Of a stretch of DNA of 23,165 bases, positions 9,047 through 22,537 are shown in pieces. How positions within the stretch are numbered: position 1 is the stretch's first letter; every line of letters begins with the position of its first letter. Source of the stretch: a virus; the IMG/VR virus record IMGVR_UViG_3300024520_000512, positions 1 through 23,165 of that record. One strand, 5' to 3'. Below the pieces are notes generated by a model, which saw only the letters and a list, made by a program, of their open reading frames with translations, was not told the DNA's origin and searched no databases. A program made the translations under genes and the position numbers.

Positions 9047-9220
9047 TTAGTTGAATGTTGTGTCAAATGTTTCATCAAATATATCAAGTAACACCTCTTC
9101 TTTTGGTAATGCTACTGTTCTACCTATACCGTGTTTCCAATAGTAAGGTTGTTTGTCACACTTACATAAGTGTTCTGCTAAATATCTGTTTTTGCATAAG
9201 CAATAGAAACTCTTAGGCAT
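9047..9220 (-). CDS. Small Cys-rich protein (57 aa)
   Basis: A 57-aa frame begins MPKSFYCLCKNRYL and ends TFDTTFN. Its ATG overlaps the last 8 bases of the protease gene, and it ends 6 bases before the fibre gene, so it fills the gap exactly. Cysteines at 7, 9, 19 and 21, arranged CxC-x9-CxC, with His17, could bind a metal ion. The C-terminal half is acidic. I do not recognise it. Tight packing between two real genes and sensible codons support it as genuine. Its role is unknown. Confidence 0.6.
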   Translation of the reverse strand: MPKSFYCLCKNRYLAEHLCKCDKQPYYWKHGIGRTVALPKEEVLLDIFDETFDTTFN

Positions 9221-9824
9221 CTTTTAATATTTCTTTAATTTGTTCTAACCAACTTACTTCTTGTTCGGTTAGTTTATCTTCAAGTACTTCTTTATTCATC
9301 TCTAATTTATCACTAAAGAATCCTTCAATACTGAAACCTTTTACTCTCTTAGTTTTAACAAACTCTTCCCAAATCTCATCGTTGTTTACCTTGACAGAAA
9401 CCATCCACGCTCCAACTGGCATATGTAAACCATACTTTCTCGACTTGTCTTGTACATCATCTTCAATAATCCAAGATTCTACAACAGACAATCCCTCTAA
9501 CTCGCTTTCGTGTTCTAAGGTTGAGTTGTTTTGCTTACCTTTAGATAAGAATAGTTCAGAGGCTTTACGTACCGTATCATTTGAAAAGAAGATGTAATAC
9601 TCTTGTAAGCCATTGTTACGGTATATCTTCTTGTTAGGTATGAGTGCTGCACCCATTAAGATACGCTTCTCTTCATCTACCTTTGCTAATTCAAGTCTAC
9701 CTTGTTCTTTTAATGCGATGAAATCTTCTTCAATAGCAGGGTTCTCAACTATACTAATAGCCTCTATACCACTAAAGTCACTCTCTTCATCAATTACCAG
9801 TTCTATAACTTCTAAATCTTCCAT
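9213..9824 (-). CDS. Prohead serine protease, XkdF-like
   Basis: This 203-aa protein matches the XkdF-type phage protease pattern: an acidic N-terminus with SIVENPAIEEDFIAL, a core with MGAALIPNKKIYR, the likely catalytic His in STLEHE (H105), the ESWIIED strand (E116), GLHMPVGAWMVSVKV, and the likely nucleophile Ser in GFSIEG (S165). Such proteases cleave scaffold and capsid N-termini during maturation. The catalytic assignment is by analogy with the family. The ATG is the end of a TTGTTATTATATTATG copy. The scaffold gene is not next to it: about 6 kb of small and receptor-binding genes lie between. Confidence 0.75.
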   Translation of the reverse strand: MEDLEVIELVIDEESDFSGIEAISIVENPAIEEDFIALKEQGRLELAKVDEEKRILMGAALIPNKKIYRNNGLQEYYIFFSNDTVRKASELFLSKGKQNNSTLEHESELEGLSVVESWIIEDDVQDKSRKYGLHMPVGAWMVSVKVNNDEIWEEFVKTKRVKGFSIEGFFSDKLEMNKEVLEDKLTEQEVSWLEQIKEILKDA

Positions 9825-16555: not shown

Positions 16556-18772
16556 TTATTTAGCTACCCATCCTGTTTTAGAAGTTCCTGCACTTTCTTT
16601 TATATACATACTTGTAGATGTACCCCCATCTGTTCTATACCAAATAGAGCCAGTTCCTGCATAATATATATTTTCTGGTGTACCTGTTCCGCTTTGAATT
16701 AATAATGGAGCATCAAATGTGCCATCAGATAATTTAAACCATCTTGATGAATCAAACCACCCACTAGTGGGATTATTCTCGACAATACTATTAACCGTTG
16801 CTTTTGCAAAATATATAGATTGAATACCAACAGAAGTATTTTGATTGATACGATTGTTTTTTATGGTGATATATTCTGTTTCTTGATTCATATAAATACC
16901 ATAATTACTAGAAACACCATCAAAAATATTATCTAAAACATTAACACCTTTAAGTTCATTAATTTGTATCACCACATCACAATCGCCATAAAATAAATTA
17001 CTGTGAATAACAAGGTTAGATTCTTCTAAATTTGTAAATGCAATACCTGAAGCACGTTTTACTTCAATGAATTTCTGTGTGTTAATAATAGTATTACCTT
17101 TAATTATTACATTCTTTGGATTTCTAACTAGTACACCCTTACTTAGAATTGTGTGGTCTGTTCCATTTATTTTATTATTTATAACCCTTGAACCGATTTC
17201 ATAATAATCTGCATTGTCCTCTGTACCTATAACAACACCAGTGCCATTTAAAACTGTAATATCACAATTTATAACATCTGTTTCTGATTTTGATATCAAA
17301 ACACCTGCAAAATTAGCGGTTAGATTACACCCTTTTATAAGTGATTTATAACCATAATTACTTGCAATAACACCATAAGGAACATTTTTAGCCATTGAAT
17401 TTGTAATAATACACATATTAGCAGTATTCTCTATCGAAAAACCACCCTGCGAATTTGTTGTTGATACAGTAGAAATGCCTTTACTATAACAATTTTCTAT
17501 TATGTTTTCCTCTTGTGCGTATAAAGTAAATCCATTATCTCTAAAATTTTCAGCGATACAATCCCTCACAACATTGTTACCTACTGGATTATTTCCATTG
17601 TAAAGACTTACACCATTACCATCTCCAATTAATTGATTATCAACACCTATTGTATAGGGAACTAATCCAATATTATATAAATAAACGTTTTCAATTATTG
17701 AATCATAAACCCCAGAGAATAATAAACCTGCTGTGTGTGTGTTACGAACCTCTATGTTGTTAATATGTGCATTTTTGACATTGTAAAGTCTAACTCCCGC
17801 ACCTACATTATTAGTAGTTGGTGTTCCTGTAAGACCTGCACAATTAGCATCAACAATAATATTTGAAATAGTTATATCATTACTGTTAGCGACTAATGTT
17901 ATAGGGTTTAAATAATAATTCTCATTAACTATTGTATCAAACATATCTAACGACAAATCATTACGTAATGCTTTTATAATAGCTTTACCGCTTTTAGTTG
18001 TTAGTGTTGTGTTTGATGGAATAACTACCGTATTTGATGTTCTATATGTTAACTCTTTTTGAAGTACAACAGTACCACTTGATATTTTAGCAAAAGCTAA
18101 TGAATTATTTATTGCTTGTATATCATCTGTAATACCATCACCAACTGCTCCAAACCATTCAACATAAGAATATTTATTTTTAAACGTTCCGTTATGTGTA
18201 ATATCAGTATCAAAAATTTTAACCAAACTAGTTTCTAACTTTGTATCGTTTCCTGTAATAGTAAACGCTCCACTAATAACACCACCGTTAAAATGTAAAG
18301 TAACATCAGGAGGTATTGTTTTATCTGCTGTTAAAGTAATATCATCTAATATTAACCAAGTACCAGAAGTGCCTGCTGCAACTAGCGTATCAAACTCCCC
18401 AATCGTTCTTACAACCTCATAACCCAATGTATCAATAGGTATTTCTAACTTCTCAAAAGTTGTTTGAGTATCTGAAACTGTTATAATAGTAATCTTGCTT
18501 GCTAAAGAAACAACTAAACTCCCTGCATTTGTATATGTACCTGATTCGGACGCATAGTAGTAGCCATCTTCTATTGGTGTATCTGCTATGGCTAAAAATC
18601 CTTTGTAACCAGATGATATGCCTGCTAATTGGTCTGAAACAATTTGTATTTTATCATCAACAGCAACACTCATTTTTTGCTGATAAGACCTTGCTCCTTT
18701 AACAACGTGTATTATGTCGCTTGAATCAGAAATACTAGATACACCTCTATCTGTTAATTTTTGGTTTGTCAT
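16556..18772 (-). CDS. Tail spike with pectate-lyase-type beta-helix
   Basis: This 738-aa protein begins MTNQKLTDRGVSSISDSSD, a phage fibre-type N-terminus. Residues about 140-180 form a cap module ending ISGAFTITGNDTKLE. Residues 204-225 (VEWFGAVGDGITDDIQAINN) match the start of the pectate-lyase-superfamily repeat domain seen in many spikes. A long run of short Asn/Ile/Val-rich rungs follows (about 250-660), typical of a right-handed beta-helix. The C-terminus (GSIWYRTDGGTSTSMYIKES...) is a recurrent fibre-tip module. It probably binds or degrades surface polysaccharide; catalytic residues are not assignable here. It is encoded among tail genes, far from the second spike at 3.2-6.2 kb. Confidence 0.75.
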   Translation of the reverse strand: MTNQKLTDRGVSSISDSSDIIHVVKGARSYQQKMSVAVDDKIQIVSDQLAGISSGYKGFLAIADTPIEDGYYYASESGTYTNAGSLVVSLASKITIITVSDTQTTFEKLEIPIDTLGYEVVRTIGEFDTLVAAGTSGTWLILDDITLTADKTIPPDVTLHFNGGVISGAFTITGNDTKLETSLVKIFDTDITHNGTFKNKYSYVEWFGAVGDGITDDIQAINNSLAFAKISSGTVVLQKELTYRTSNTVVIPSNTTLTTKSGKAIIKALRNDLSLDMFDTIVNENYYLNPITLVANSNDITISNIIVDANCAGLTGTPTTNNVGAGVRLYNVKNAHINNIEVRNTHTAGLLFSGVYDSIIENVYLYNIGLVPYTIGVDNQLIGDGNGVSLYNGNNPVGNNVVRDCIAENFRDNGFTLYAQEENIIENCYSKGISTVSTTNSQGGFSIENTANMCIITNSMAKNVPYGVIASNYGYKSLIKGCNLTANFAGVLISKSETDVINCDITVLNGTGVVIGTEDNADYYEIGSRVINNKINGTDHTILSKGVLVRNPKNVIIKGNTIINTQKFIEVKRASGIAFTNLEESNLVIHSNLFYGDCDVVIQINELKGVNVLDNIFDGVSSNYGIYMNQETEYITIKNNRINQNTSVGIQSIYFAKATVNSIVENNPTSGWFDSSRWFKLSDGTFDAPLLIQSGTGTPENIYYAGTGSIWYRTDGGTSTSMYIKESAGTSKTGWVAK

Positions 18773-18776
18773 TTTA

Positions 18777-19295
18777 TTATATGCTTTTTATATTATCTTT
18801 AAATGCAAATGCTAGAAATTTATCTATATCTAGTCCGTATGCTTCTACTAATTCATTAGGAAGTGTCTTAAACTCCTTTTCTAACGCCATTGTCATAAAT
18901 TTACTAGGTTTTAACCCTTTTCTATACACACTTCTTGCTATCGCCCAATTTATGCTTTTTCTACCCTTTTTAAACCTACCTTTACTATCTCTAGGCTCAA
19001 TACCTTTAGCTATTATCCATTTATCAAAAACTCTTGCAGGTGGCATCTTCTTAAACTTAAATCTAGTGTTATAACCCCTCTGCGTACCACTAACACCTTC
19101 ATCTATATAGAAACCGTGTTCTGCCATCTCTAAAGATAACTGTATCGAGTTTTCACTAGCATTTACCTTCTTCTTAAAGCTATTTTCTAATTCCTTAGTA
19201 GCACTTTTCCCTTGAGAATGTAAATTCATCTTCGCTTGAGCAAATACTGCATCTGCAAAGTCATTTAATAGCTTTTTAGTGTTATCTCTTAACAT
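18777..19295 (-). CDS. HK97 gp10-like tail-completion/neck protein
   Basis: This 172-aa basic protein has an N-terminal helix (LLNDFADAVFAQAKMNLHSQ), then a beta segment with MAEHGFYIDEGVSGT, a basic region (RDSKGRFKKGRKSINWAIAR) and a C-terminal helix. The order helix, YIDEG-type turn, KGRFKKG loop, helix is that of HK97 gp10-like neck proteins, which join the head connector to the tail. It overlaps the preceding gene by 7 bases and leaves 4 bases before the spike gene. Confidence 0.6.
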   Translation of the reverse strand: MLRDNTKKLLNDFADAVFAQAKMNLHSQGKSATKELENSFKKKVNASENSIQLSLEMAEHGFYIDEGVSGTQRGYNTRFKFKKMPPARVFDKWIIAKGIEPRDSKGRFKKGRKSINWAIARSVYRKGLKPSKFMTMALEKEFKTLPNELVEAYGLDIDKFLAFAFKDNIKSI

Positions 19296-19741
19296 TTATC
19301 CTGCATTGATGAGCGTAATGTGATAGTTCCTTCCCATCCTGCTAATTCATTGTTAAATTTGTCTAAAAATGGCGTTACTCTACTAGAATCTACTATCGTT
19401 ATACCACTTTCTCTATAATCATTGCGTCTAAAGAAGTTATTAACATCTGTAAGCACCTTTAATTGGCTATTTAACACATCTTGTAGGTTATTACTACCTA
19501 AAAACTGGTCTGCAACCTGTTCTTTACTAATATCTAGTATGTCTGCTGCTATGATATTGACCGTAAAATCAATATAATTCTCGTCTATAAGAGCATCTTC
19601 AATATTCAAGTGTACTAACGGGAAATTGGTCTTTTTGTCCAAATCCACCTGTTCAACCTCTCCAAAGGTCACTTTATTGGTAAAACTAGACAATATCAAG
19701 TATTCTCTTAGTTCATCTAGTATTTTATAGAAATTATTCAT
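19289..19741 (-). CDS. Tail terminator-like protein
   Basis: This 150-aa protein begins MNNFYKILDELREYLILSSF. It has a helix, then strands VTFGEVEQVDLDKKTNFPLV and a C-terminal FNNELAGWEGTITLRSSMQD. The N-terminal helix, FPLVHL strand and LAGWE ending are a recurrent set in Bacteroidota phage genomes, in the position and size of tail terminator (gpU-like) proteins that cap the tail tube. The assignment to that role is inference from size, fold impression and its partner the gp10-like gene, which it overlaps. The start follows the -1-frame stop of the chaperone by 2 bases. Confidence 0.55.
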   Translation of the reverse strand: MNNFYKILDELREYLILSSFTNKVTFGEVEQVDLDKKTNFPLVHLNIEDALIDENYIDFTVNIIAADILDISKEQVADQFLGSNNLQDVLNSQLKVLTDVNNFFRRNDYRESGITIVDSSRVTPFLDKFNNELAGWEGTITLRSSMQDKC

Positions 19742-19743
19742 TA

Positions 19744-20537
19744 TTATCTGTTAAAACTCTGTTTCATTAACTTATTTTCTAAACTCACCTTATCTTTCTC
19801 GTAATCTAGCATCATAAAACATTCGTGAACCCTTGTTTTTGTAACCTCATCGAATCTTCTGACATCTCCTTGAGCAAGTGTATGTATCGATTGATACCAT
19901 CCCCATTTTCTCCCAAAATTGGCTTGAGCGTCTGTGGCACTCCCTCCGCCTTCATCACTCTTTGTAAATAGTCCATCGTAAGAAGTGGTAATTTGCTCCC
20001 TAAACGATAAAAAAAAACCATCGCACCAATAGCAACATCAACAGGCATATCTAACATTACCTCTGAATACTTAGCACTACCTTCGTATTCGTTAATCTCA
20101 TAGAACTCCTTCTTACTATGATACACTGGTCTAAATAAAACCGCCATAGCCTTGTGCATAGTCTGCCAATCAGAGATGTATTTCTCTAAGTCTATAAACT
20201 CACCAAAGGTCATATCATCTAACTTAGGTATAAAGCCAAACTCAACCTTAGTGTCATCACCTGCTTTATTCTTTCCTGTCATAGTAAACTTCTTTACTAG
20301 CGGAGTTTCTTCCTTAAAGCACTCTAAAACGTGTTCTATAACGCTATTGAACTTAACAATAGGTATCTTATAGGTATCATCTATATCAAGACCGCAGAAT
20401 ATTTGTAGCACTTTAGTCTTAAAATAAACCTCATCTTCCTTATCCCATCTATCGTGCATCTTTAAATACTGCTGATACTGTCTAAGTGATATACCACCTA
20501 AATCTTTGGGTATAGATATTTCAAACTCTTTTGTCAT
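19744..20537 (-). CDS. Tail assembly chaperone, -1 frameshift product (gpGT-like)
   Basis: Proposed fusion: codons 1-176 in the frame starting at 20537, then a -1 shift in the T9 run (20017-20009), then 88 codons in the -1 frame to TAA at 19746-19744, about 264 aa in all. The -1 frame has a stop 10 codons upstream of the run and is open right after it. Its product includes GGGSATDAQANFGRKWGWYQ and SIHTLAQGDVRRFDEVTKTR, then LDYEKDKVSLENKLMK. This is the C-terminal domain I recognise from tail assembly chaperones, where the T part contacts the tube protein. It ends 2 bases before the next gene. A second possible slippery heptamer is T TTG GGA near 19918-19912. A homopolymer sequencing error (true T10) would give the same fusion without recoding. 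Confidence 0.65.
19812..20537 (-). CDS. Tail assembly chaperone, zero-frame product (gpG-like)
   Basis: This 241-aa protein begins MTKEFEISIPKDLGGISLRQ. I place the start at 20537-20535. An in-frame ATG ten codons upstream would only translate the repeated leader (MKSIVFCYYI), and the same leader precedes other starts. The protein is helical and acidic with DDMTFGEFIDLEKYISDWQT, fitting a cytoplasmic chaperone that coats the tape measure. At codons 174-177 the coding sequence is GTT TTT TTT TAT, a run of nine T's. Beyond it the zero frame (65 codons) uses many G/C-ending codons (GCG GAG GTG CAG ACG CTC AAG), unlike neighbours, while the -1 frame there looks normal. The zero-frame tail may therefore be the by-product of dual coding. 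Confidence 0.65.
   Translation of the reverse strand: MTKEFEISIPKDLGGISLRQYQQYLKMHDRWDKEDEVYFKTKVLQIFCGLDIDDTYKIPIVKFNSVIEHVLECFKEETPLVKKFTMTGKNKAGDDTKVEFGFIPKLDDMTFGEFIDLEKYISDWQTMHKAMAVLFRPVYHSKKEFYEINEYEGSAKYSEVMLDMPVDVAIGAMVFFYRLGSKLPLLTMDYLQRVMKAEGVPQTLKPILGENGDGINRYIHLLKEMSEDSMRLQKQGFTNVL
20009..20017 (-). other. Probable -1 ribosomal slippery site (T9)
   Basis: Nine T's on the minus strand read G GTT TTT TTT TAT in the zero frame. Both tRNA-Phe positions can re-pair one base back. The -1 open frame of 88 codons begins here. No unambiguous downstream stimulatory stem was identified by eye. Confidence 0.55.
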
Positions 20538-20868: not shown

Positions 20869-20984
20869 TGAAATATAAGAAAAGAGCAAATAAGTATATA
20901 AAAAAGGACTTGAGAATGTTCTTTAAGTTTAATAATGAGTATAATAAAAAACAAAGAGATGAAAGAAGAAAAAAAATGGACTGA
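20868..20984 (+). CDS. Possible 38-aa very basic protein
   Basis: The frame starts at an ATG overlapping the lipoprotein stop (TAATG) and encodes MKYKKRANKYIKKDLRMFFK followed by FNNEYNKKQRDERRKKMD. It is almost all Lys, Arg, Asn and Tyr. The overlap suggests coupling, but the composition is what any A-rich leader would give, and it overlaps the next gene by 26 bases. It could be a real small nucleic-acid-binding protein or a leader frame. Confidence 0.35.
   Translation: MKYKKRANKYIKKDLRMFFKFNNEYNKKQRDERRKKMD
20937..20954 (+). repeat. Leader repeat GAGTATAATAAAAAACAA, copy 1
   Basis: These 18 bases recur exactly at 21572-21589. Each lies just before an ATG followed by RAAGAAGAAA. In this copy it is within the 38-aa frame; in copy 2 it is intergenic. 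Confidence 0.75.
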
Positions 20985-21567
20985 TGATGAGTTTGAGAGA
21001 TATAGTGGTGGTGTAATAAATGTTAAGAAGAATAAAATAACAAATAAGCCAAAAGCAGACCAAAAACTAACATACCTTATGTTTGATGGTAATCTATATA
21101 AAATAGGTAAATCTAAAAACCCAGAAAACAGATTAAAACAAATCAAAACAGGTAATCCTAATTGCAAACTTATTTGTTATGGATATGGAGCGACAGAAGA
21201 ACTTTTACATAAAAGATTTTGCAAGAAAAGAATTAAGCTAGAGTGGTTTAATCTAAACGAAAATGACGTATCATCTTGTGTAGAATTAATTAAAGGTACT
21301 AAGAAGTATAAAAGATGGTATGTTGAAGAAATTTTAGAAGGGAAACATTCAAGCTACAATAAGAATATAAAATACGTAATAACATTTGGTAAATTCAAAG
21401 GTAGGAAGATTACATCTATGATTGAATTTGCAGAAATAAATTACTGTAAATGGATATGTGAGCAAGAAGAAGAAAATTACGGAATAGGTATATTGAATTC
21501 TAGTCGTAAATATAAAGCCCTTAAATGGTGGATTACAGATGGAATTAAAAACTATAAATCTTATTAA
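20959..21567 (+). CDS. T5orf172 / MUG113-type GIY-YIG-like protein with a C-terminal DUF3820-like domain
   Basis: I choose the start at 20959 (MKEEKKWTDDEFERYSGG, 202 aa). The upstream ATG at 20935 lies inside a leader repeat whose second copy has no ATG there. Residues 37-103 (KLTYLMFDGNLYKIGKSKNP...ENRLKQIKTGNP...ELLHKRFCKKRI...EWFNL) match the T5orf172/MUG113 family, a branch of the GIY-YIG nuclease fold: YLM, YKIGKS.NP..RL, the helix with H.RF, and EWF. Residues 140-195 (ITFGKFKGRKI...YCKWICEQ) resemble the FGK.KGK.I domain (DUF3820 / exonuclease-X-like C-terminus) found attached to nucleases. It is probably a DNA-cleaving accessory or mobile nuclease; the substrate is unknown. Confidence 0.7.
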   Translation: MKEEKKWTDDEFERYSGGVINVKKNKITNKPKADQKLTYLMFDGNLYKIGKSKNPENRLKQIKTGNPNCKLICYGYGATEELLHKRFCKKRIKLEWFNLNENDVSSCVELIKGTKKYKRWYVEEILEGKHSSYNKNIKYVITFGKFKGRKITSMIEFAEINYCKWICEQEEENYGIGILNSSRKYKALKWWITDGIKNYKSY

Positions 21568-21590: not shown

Positions 21591-21716
21591 ATGGAAGAAG
21601 AAAGCAAAACTAAAATAACATTAAAGTATTTACAAGATAATAAATTGTGGGATAGTTATTGGTTAGAAGAGAAGTACCCAGAAAGGTTTGCTACTAAAAT
21701 AAGAAGGTTATGGTAA
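21591..21716 (+). CDS. Small 41-aa protein of unknown function
   Basis: The frame begins MEEESKTKITLKYLQDNKLW and continues DSYWLEEKYPERFATKIRRL W. It is preceded by leader repeat copy 2, has a balanced composition with hydrophobic spacing typical of a short helical protein, and overlaps the HNH gene start by 7 bases. The family is not recognised. Confidence 0.5.
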   Translation: MEEESKTKITLKYLQDNKLWDSYWLEEKYPERFATKIRRLW

Positions 21717-22537
21717 AGAAAAGGAAAATGATAAGGATTGATATTGAAATGCCTAGAGTAGTTGTAAACACGCTTATTAAGAAATTAAACAAGCCAAGAC
21801 CAACAGGATACAATGCAAAAAAAGAAAATATTAATAAATTAAGAGATGTAATTGATACACTATTCCTTGATGGTGAATGTGGTATTCTACGTAATAATGA
21901 AATAATAATCAATGACGAAGAAGTAGAATATGCAGAAGAGAACGCATATAAGTTTTCAGATAAAACAGGCAAATACATAGGCTCTGGTCTTAGTGTTTTA
22001 GGAGTTAAGAACCTTGTTATGAAAGGAGATTTTCTTTTTCACTGTGGTTCTTGTGATACAGATATGGTCTATACAGAGTATAAAGGTAAAAAGAATTTCA
22101 ATTTTAGAGTGCTAGATGATTTAAGATTAGATATTGGGTATTGTAGTAACTGCGATAATAAAAGGCAATCAAATTATAGAGAGAATACATTATTTAGGTT
22201 GTCATTAAATTATAGAAACAGGACATCATCTGCTTTCAGATTAGGAGGGTATCAAAAAGGAACTAAAACAGAAAAGATGCTTGGAATAGATTTCAATTCA
22301 TTAAATCAATATTTAGAAAATCAATTCACAAAAGGTATGTCTTGGGATAACTACGGTGAATGGCATATAGACCATATCATACCTCTTTGTGCAGCTAATA
22401 CCGAAGAAGAACTTAAATTATTATGCCATCACAAAAATCTACAACCTCTATGGGCGTTTGATAATATAAGCAAAAACGGTAAGTATAATGAAAAAGAGAA
22501 AGCAGAAATGTTAAAGTTTATTATAAACTGTAAGTAA
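21710..22537 (+). CDS. HNH endonuclease with a zinc-ribbon-like module
   Basis: This 275-aa protein has two CxxC pairs (C112/C115 in CGSCD, C145/C148 in CSNCD) that could form a zinc ribbon. Next is the segment ENQFTKGMSWDNYGEWHIDH, which leads into the HNH motif: H219-I-D-H222, then EEELKLLCHHKNLQPLW (H240/H241, N243) and FDNISKNGKY (N252, K255). GMSWDNYG.WHIDHIIPL...E...L.H..NLQPLW..DN is the family signature of phage and intron-associated HNH nucleases. The N-terminal 100 residues are unrecognised and include a charged helix. It probably makes double-strand cuts as a homing or packaging-associated enzyme. An internal ATG at codon 7 is an alternative start. Confidence 0.8.
   Translation: MVKKRKMIRIDIEMPRVVVNTLIKKLNKPRPTGYNAKKENINKLRDVIDTLFLDGECGILRNNEIIINDEEVEYAEENAYKFSDKTGKYIGSGLSVLGVKNLVMKGDFLFHCGSCDTDMVYTEYKGKKNFNFRVLDDLRLDIGYCSNCDNKRQSNYRENTLFRLSLNYRNRTSSAFRLGGYQKGTKTEKMLGIDFNSLNQYLENQFTKGMSWDNYGEWHIDHIIPLCAANTEEELKLLCHHKNLQPLWAFDNISKNGKYNEKEKAEMLKFIINCK

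Follow-up and report, generated by a model that had tools for sequence, protein, structure and literature searches.

A conserved, previously unannotated putative frame switch at a T9 run in a late phage gene

The T9 run and its conservation among relatives

The window analysed here, i.e. the whole stretch of 23,165 bases of an IMG/VR virus record, contains a minus-strand gene that begins with an ATG at 20537 and encodes a protein with the N-terminus MTKEFEIS (Table 1). The zero frame of this gene has 241 codons and ends with a stop codon at 19814-19812, and 65 of these codons lie past a run of nine T's that is embedded in codons 174-177. No stop interrupts the -1 frame at the run, the nearest preceding one being located at 20040-20038, and this frame continues for 88 codons from a TTA at 20010 to a stop at 19746-19744, which is only 2 bases before the ATG of the next gene at 19741. 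The FF at the start of the -1 segment is common to both frames. Close to the run there is no separate start codon for the -1 frame; the two parts are connected by the fixed T run. The first-pass annotation had already noticed the run, the 88 open -1 codons reaching up to the next gene, and the 65 codons over which both frames stay open, and all of this was confirmed. A further run of nine bases, read as T9 on the plus and as A9 on the minus strand, is found in the window at 1702-1710, where it is intergenic and just upstream of the start of a phrog_19091 gene at 1692.

Table 1. Coordinates of the locus in the window, with the basis of each assignment
Feature	Position	Strand	Basis
Zero-frame gene, short form, 241 aa (stop codon included)	19812..20537	-	ORF; phrog_32199 match; zero-frame constraint before run
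Putative T9 slip site in GTT TTT TTT TAT	20009..20017	-	T9 or T10 in 304/304 distinct relatives, never shorter
-1 frame segment FFLSFREQ...KQSFNR + stop; C-terminal 88 residues of the proposed 264-aa long form	19744..20016	-	Conservation; codon-position pattern
Overlap read in both frames, up to the zero-frame stop	19812..20008	-	Suppressed substitution; zero frame open beyond expectation
T TTG GGA heptamer, judged non-functional	19911..19917	-	Unconserved in relatives
Next gene, phrog_30964, conserved neighbour	19289..19741	-	
Following gene, phrog_29822; P12024L counterpart weakly matches tail completion/Neck1 family	18777..19295	-	

Viral contigs were first scanned twice, once for the zero-frame protein and once for the -1 product, and all of the 160 loci obtained have both parts, with the second part in the -1 frame. 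The set was widened by alignment-based scans and by a scan with the protein of the cultured Nonlabens phage P12024L; two of the scans each gave at least about 580-600 related stretches. Among the matches listed, 304 distinct loci contain both parts, originating from IMG/VR, from one Flavobacteriaceae MAG and from P12024L. Their N-terminal parts fall into 149, 87 and 25 clusters at 90, 70 and 50% protein identity, respectively, and relatives reach down to about 25-30% protein identity. In all 304 loci the run is found at the same codons, always within (V/L/I/F)FF(Y/W/L/F/C), and the second part is encoded in the -1 frame. T9 accounts for 275 loci and T10 for the other 29, with no shorter or longer run among them, which answers the suggestion of the earlier annotation to compare run lengths in related phages. 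The T10 members, which include the Flavobacteriaceae MAG, have other flanking codons (ATA TTT TTT TTT TAC, or ATT TTT TTT TTG), and this preserves their -1 relation. The search itself can hardly have selected for the run, since the scan patterns were peptides away from it and did not contain VFF, the one exception being FFYHLGND among the six patterns of one scan. When the set is reduced to 104 representatives with at most 85% DNA identity, all of them have T9 or T10 at the site, and elsewhere in their loci sense-strand T runs of at least nine occur only 17 times in 417 kb. The conservation of T9/T10 is thus far above chance.

This recurrence also settles the question of whether the site is genuine. 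Homopolymers are error-prone in general, and a miscount in sequencing or assembly, with a true T10 and one continuous gene, had been put forward as an explanation of the two open frames. The miscount is refuted by the fact that the -1 relation recurs in 304/304 loci, from many separate assemblies as well as from the GenBank record of P12024L, and even the T10 members keep it. A decayed gene would not have both of its frames under selection, as described below, and either of these two possibilities is so improbable that it can practically be neglected.

The cultured relatives illustrate how such an arrangement can be overlooked. Among about 50,700 phage records, only the Nonlabens phages P12024L and P12024S gave matches, with 27% identity. 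In P12024L, genes 40 and 41 (JQ823123.1, 23946-24640) are annotated as separate hypothetical proteins, but gene 40 contains the same T9 (CTT TTT TTT TAT), from which the -1 frame reads FFLSFRERLRDLYPELY...LKWGWYHTF directly into gene 41. It is almost certain that genes 40 and 41 are a single gene that switches to -1 at the T9, and phrog_32199 and phrog_38404 would then each represent one half of the same product. These two families, which are represented by P12024L and P12024S, are homologous to the shared N-terminal part and to a part of the -1 extension, respectively; they are kept as separate families of unknown function, whereas we propose one frame-switched product. All 44 aligned homologues of the zero-frame protein match phrog_32199. 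The hosts presumably belong to the Flavobacteriia, since a cultured Nonlabens phage and a Flavobacteriaceae MAG carry the site. A hidden second product can thus be named in a large, mostly uncultured phage family, and it becomes apparent why annotation has missed it.

Selection on the two reading frames

The -1 product has a mean column identity of 60% across 42 aligned representatives, and it is conserved as a protein from the T9 itself (FFLSF.....Y.ELF). This is important for the position of the putative frame change, as there is a second candidate: T TTG GGA is a textbook X XXY YYZ heptamer that exists in the correct phase in the window, at 19917-19911 rather than at 19918-19912, where the first-pass annotation had placed it. 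If the frame changed there, the zero frame would be the sole coding frame up to this heptamer. The heptamer is not conserved, though, since relatives read LEKNG, LAQSG and similar peptides at this position, and both frames are constrained already before it. Use of T TTG GGA as a second slip site is therefore unsupported, and we regard a frame change at this point as very improbable. The conserved -1 peptide and the lack of conservation of T TTG GGA point to the T9 as slip site.

Substitution rates at the zero-frame codon positions 1/2/3 were determined from 88 disjoint sequence pairs, and the same pattern was obtained with 326 overlapping pairs. Before the run, the rates of.177/.126/.396 are those of a coding zero frame. 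In codons 1-15 past the run all three positions are suppressed (.074/.090/.135), and the rates are.147/.188/.192 in codons 16-30 and.039/.165/.097 in codons 31-45. Past the zero-frame stop, where only the -1 frame is coding, they are.080/.277/.117, the third position of the -1 frame being position 2 of the zero frame; codons 31-60 resemble this part in having their highest rate at position 2. The suppression in codons 1-15 and the subsequent peak at position 2 show that the first third of the overlap is constrained by both frames, and that its later part is dominated by the -1 frame.

As independent evidence, the zero frame remains open past the run for 61 codons on average in the 104 representatives, as opposed to 15 codons expected from synonymous reshuffles of the -1 product that follow the observed codon usage, and such reshuffles are expected to reach the observed openness in 1.7 of the 104 representatives. 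The short product's own tail is thus maintained in most of the family. This tail is short in the P12024L-like clade (24 codons in P12024L). In 100 of the 104 representatives, the third frame ends at a stop located exactly 3 codons behind the run (+7 to +9). Such a stop would be a clean end for other slip products, but we give it no weight, as both proteins largely dictate these bases, and it may simply be a by-product of the two coding frames. A long stretch that is selected in two frames represents a clean natural example of dual coding.

The dual-coding frameshift that had been considered at the T9 is strongly supported by the conserved run, the -1 relation and the selection on both frames. 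From its conservation we regard the frame switch as real and as having escaped annotation, and very probably it is a programmed switch that gives rise to two proteins from one start. The short form of 241 aa would result from reading straight through the T9, and the long form of 264 aa would arise once expression enters the -1 frame at the T9, whereby residues 1-176 would be joined to an 88-residue, mostly helical tail that starts with LSFREQ.

Polymerase or ribosome at the run

In principle, the frame can be changed during transcription or during translation, and both ways would result in an identical fusion protein, in which ...MVFF is directly followed by LSFREQ.... In the first case, the RNA polymerase would add one U on the T9, and the U10 message would be read into the -1 frame. 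In the second case, ribosomes would shift by -1 on U UUU UUU within the T9, and the outer T's would then be fixed by the encoded amino acids and the last T by a preference of the ribosome. The latter possibility, to which we assign somewhat less than an even chance, is consistent with the heptamer T TTT TTT being in phase in T9 and T10 members alike, and with the fact that -1 frameshifting in tail genes is common among long-tailed phages and does not always depend on stimulators (PMC5009743).

Informative in this respect is the last T of the second TTT. Its exchange to C would be silent in both frames (TTC for Phe; CTA/CTG for Leu) and would keep the heptamer as T TTT TTC. Such a C is found in none of the 304 distinct relatives, although TTC makes up 21.6% of the Phe codons in these genes. 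If the 87 clusters were independent, the chance of this absence would be 0.784 to the power of 87, i.e. about 6e-10, and for 25 clusters it would be 0.002, both values being only indicative because the clusters are related. As the doubly silent C would break only the run of nine and is never seen, polymerase slippage is favoured over ribosomal frameshifting, but ribosomes may prefer U UUU UUU over U UUU UUC, and this T would then be kept for that reason. Another point against the ribosome is that U_UUU_UUU is much less shift-prone in E. coli than A_AAA_AAG (PMC5009743).

A stimulatory RNA structure, which is common in -1 frameshifting albeit not obligatory, was detected neither upstream nor downstream of the run (mean z -0.06 to -0.24, no lower than in controls), and the site region has no match in Rfam. 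This absence is still compatible with a ribosomal shift, since U UUU UUU is a shift motif and some ribosomal frameshifts of tailed phages seem to work without stimulators (PMC5009743). From programmed transcriptional slippage one would expect an uninterrupted A/T run of about nine or more that is kept beyond the needs of the proteins, and the run described here, with never fewer than nine T's and never the doubly silent C, is of this kind. In many bacterial genomes, signs of selection against slippage appear once runs reach nine bases (PMC1088944), and slippage sites of 9A/9T are used by IS elements and others (PMC1088944, PMC5009743).

Taken together, the sequence evidence leans towards transcriptional slippage without deciding between polymerase and ribosome, and we consider it somewhat more probable that the slip occurs mainly during transcription. 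There is about an even chance for the more far-reaching idea that in a widespread family of flavobacterial phages programmed slippage of the RNA polymerase on T9 controls how much is made of each of two late proteins, with about 60 codons read in two selected frames, and that this replaces the ribosomal frameshift of lambda-like phages. With a transcriptional slip, it would be the RNA polymerase and not the ribosome that determines in which ratio two structural-assembly proteins of a phage are made, and the behaviour of the host polymerase on T9 would become part of phage assembly. P12024L and its marine flavobacterial host are a cultured pair, with which the question of polymerase or ribosome is directly testable.

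Role of the two products and comparison with known systems

The first-pass annotation had addressed the gene as a tail chaperone gene. The architecture and the gene neighbourhood fit this idea by inference, but no chaperone was matched in Pfam, NCBIfam or PDB: neither product matches any family in Pfam or NCBIfam, and PDB contains no relative by sequence, the best fold match having an E value of 1.2. In PHROGs only families of unknown function were found, and scattered single-member matches were taken as noise. The model of the zero-frame protein is good to about residue 187 (mean pLDDT 80.5), and the -1 part modelled alone forms three helices with low confidence (pLDDT 63). Fold matches in BFVD are unnamed phage proteins and, in addition, R9VW65 of Flavobacterium phage 6H (E 3.3e-4, but TM only about 0.3), and there is one weak match labelled tail assembly chaperone (E 0.17). 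Phage 6H was considered as a parallel and rejected, as no T9 but A runs of seven or eight bases are found in its candidate region of 191 aa.

In P12024L, the terminase large subunit gene is followed by this gene, phrog_30964, phrog_29822, further structural genes and the tape measure gene. Downstream of the gene, this block is also present in the window, where it is interrupted by an additional gene for a beta-helix (tail-spike-like) protein. Among the matches listed, 184 loci have terminase-like sequence upstream, and 287 have phrog_30964-like sequence downstream. The gene is not located directly before the tape measure gene but is separated from it by several genes, and this order is unlike the usual chaperone-then-tape-measure arrangement.

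Some further genes of the window may be mentioned here. The inserted gene, at 16556-18772 on the minus strand between the phrog_29822 and phrog_35281 genes, which are both conserved, encodes a 738-aa right-handed beta-helix protein (PF13229). Beside the start of the late operon there are two genes on the opposite strand (20935-21567 and 21710-22537, plus), one encoding a T5orf172/MUG113-domain protein and the other a protein without Pfam match, in which an HNH-like motif is recognized by eye. The minus-strand genes at 9213-9824 and 1762-2685 code for a peptidase S78-like head protease (PF14550) and a virion structural protein, which is probably the major capsid protein. The placement of the head protease and the putative capsid gene after the tail genes is an unusual late-gene order.

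Our best guess, which we hold to be reasonably probable, is a role in tail assembly of the gpG/gpGT kind. The pair would act like gpG/gpGT of lambda, in that both forms share the module at the N-terminus and differ in the jobs of their C-termini. The products could also be real but serve another late function, for example as head-completion or packaging factor. Such a function would agree with the position after the terminase and with the missing match to chaperone families, but the gene lies within the tail/neck part of the operon, with a tape measure gene further downstream, two products that are related by a -1 shift are typically found for tail assembly chaperones, and the weak structural match to a protein with this label points in the same direction. 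We therefore regard another late function as possible but less probable, and a tail-assembly role as the better assumption.

How does the proposed switch compare with known systems? For the tail assembly genes of long-tailed phages, including those for gpG/gpGT of lambda, the conserved -1 frameshift has been reviewed (PMC5009743). From architecture and gene neighbourhood, the frame switch at T9 appears to be of the lambda G/GT type. The -1 extension is conserved among the relatives at a fixed slip site (304/304), as expected of such a switch, and common features are the single start, a short and a -1-extended product, a second part without independent start, and the position in the late structural region. 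In contrast to lambda gpG/gpGT, the gene described here has no sequence or fold match to named chaperones, it has a strictly kept T9/T10, both frames are selected in an overlap that comprises 53-65 codons in most members, and the gene follows the terminase instead of being located just before the tape measure gene. In the literature searched, no tail-gene case of programmed transcriptional slippage is described. On nine A/T, such slippage is known from Thermus dnaX, IS transposases, and Shigella spa13 and mxiE (PMC1088944, PMC5009743). With these systems the gene family shares an uninterrupted run of nine or ten A/T within a coding sequence and products that differ in their C-termini, and it differs from them in being a phage gene family, in which the slippage is putative and read from the sequence.
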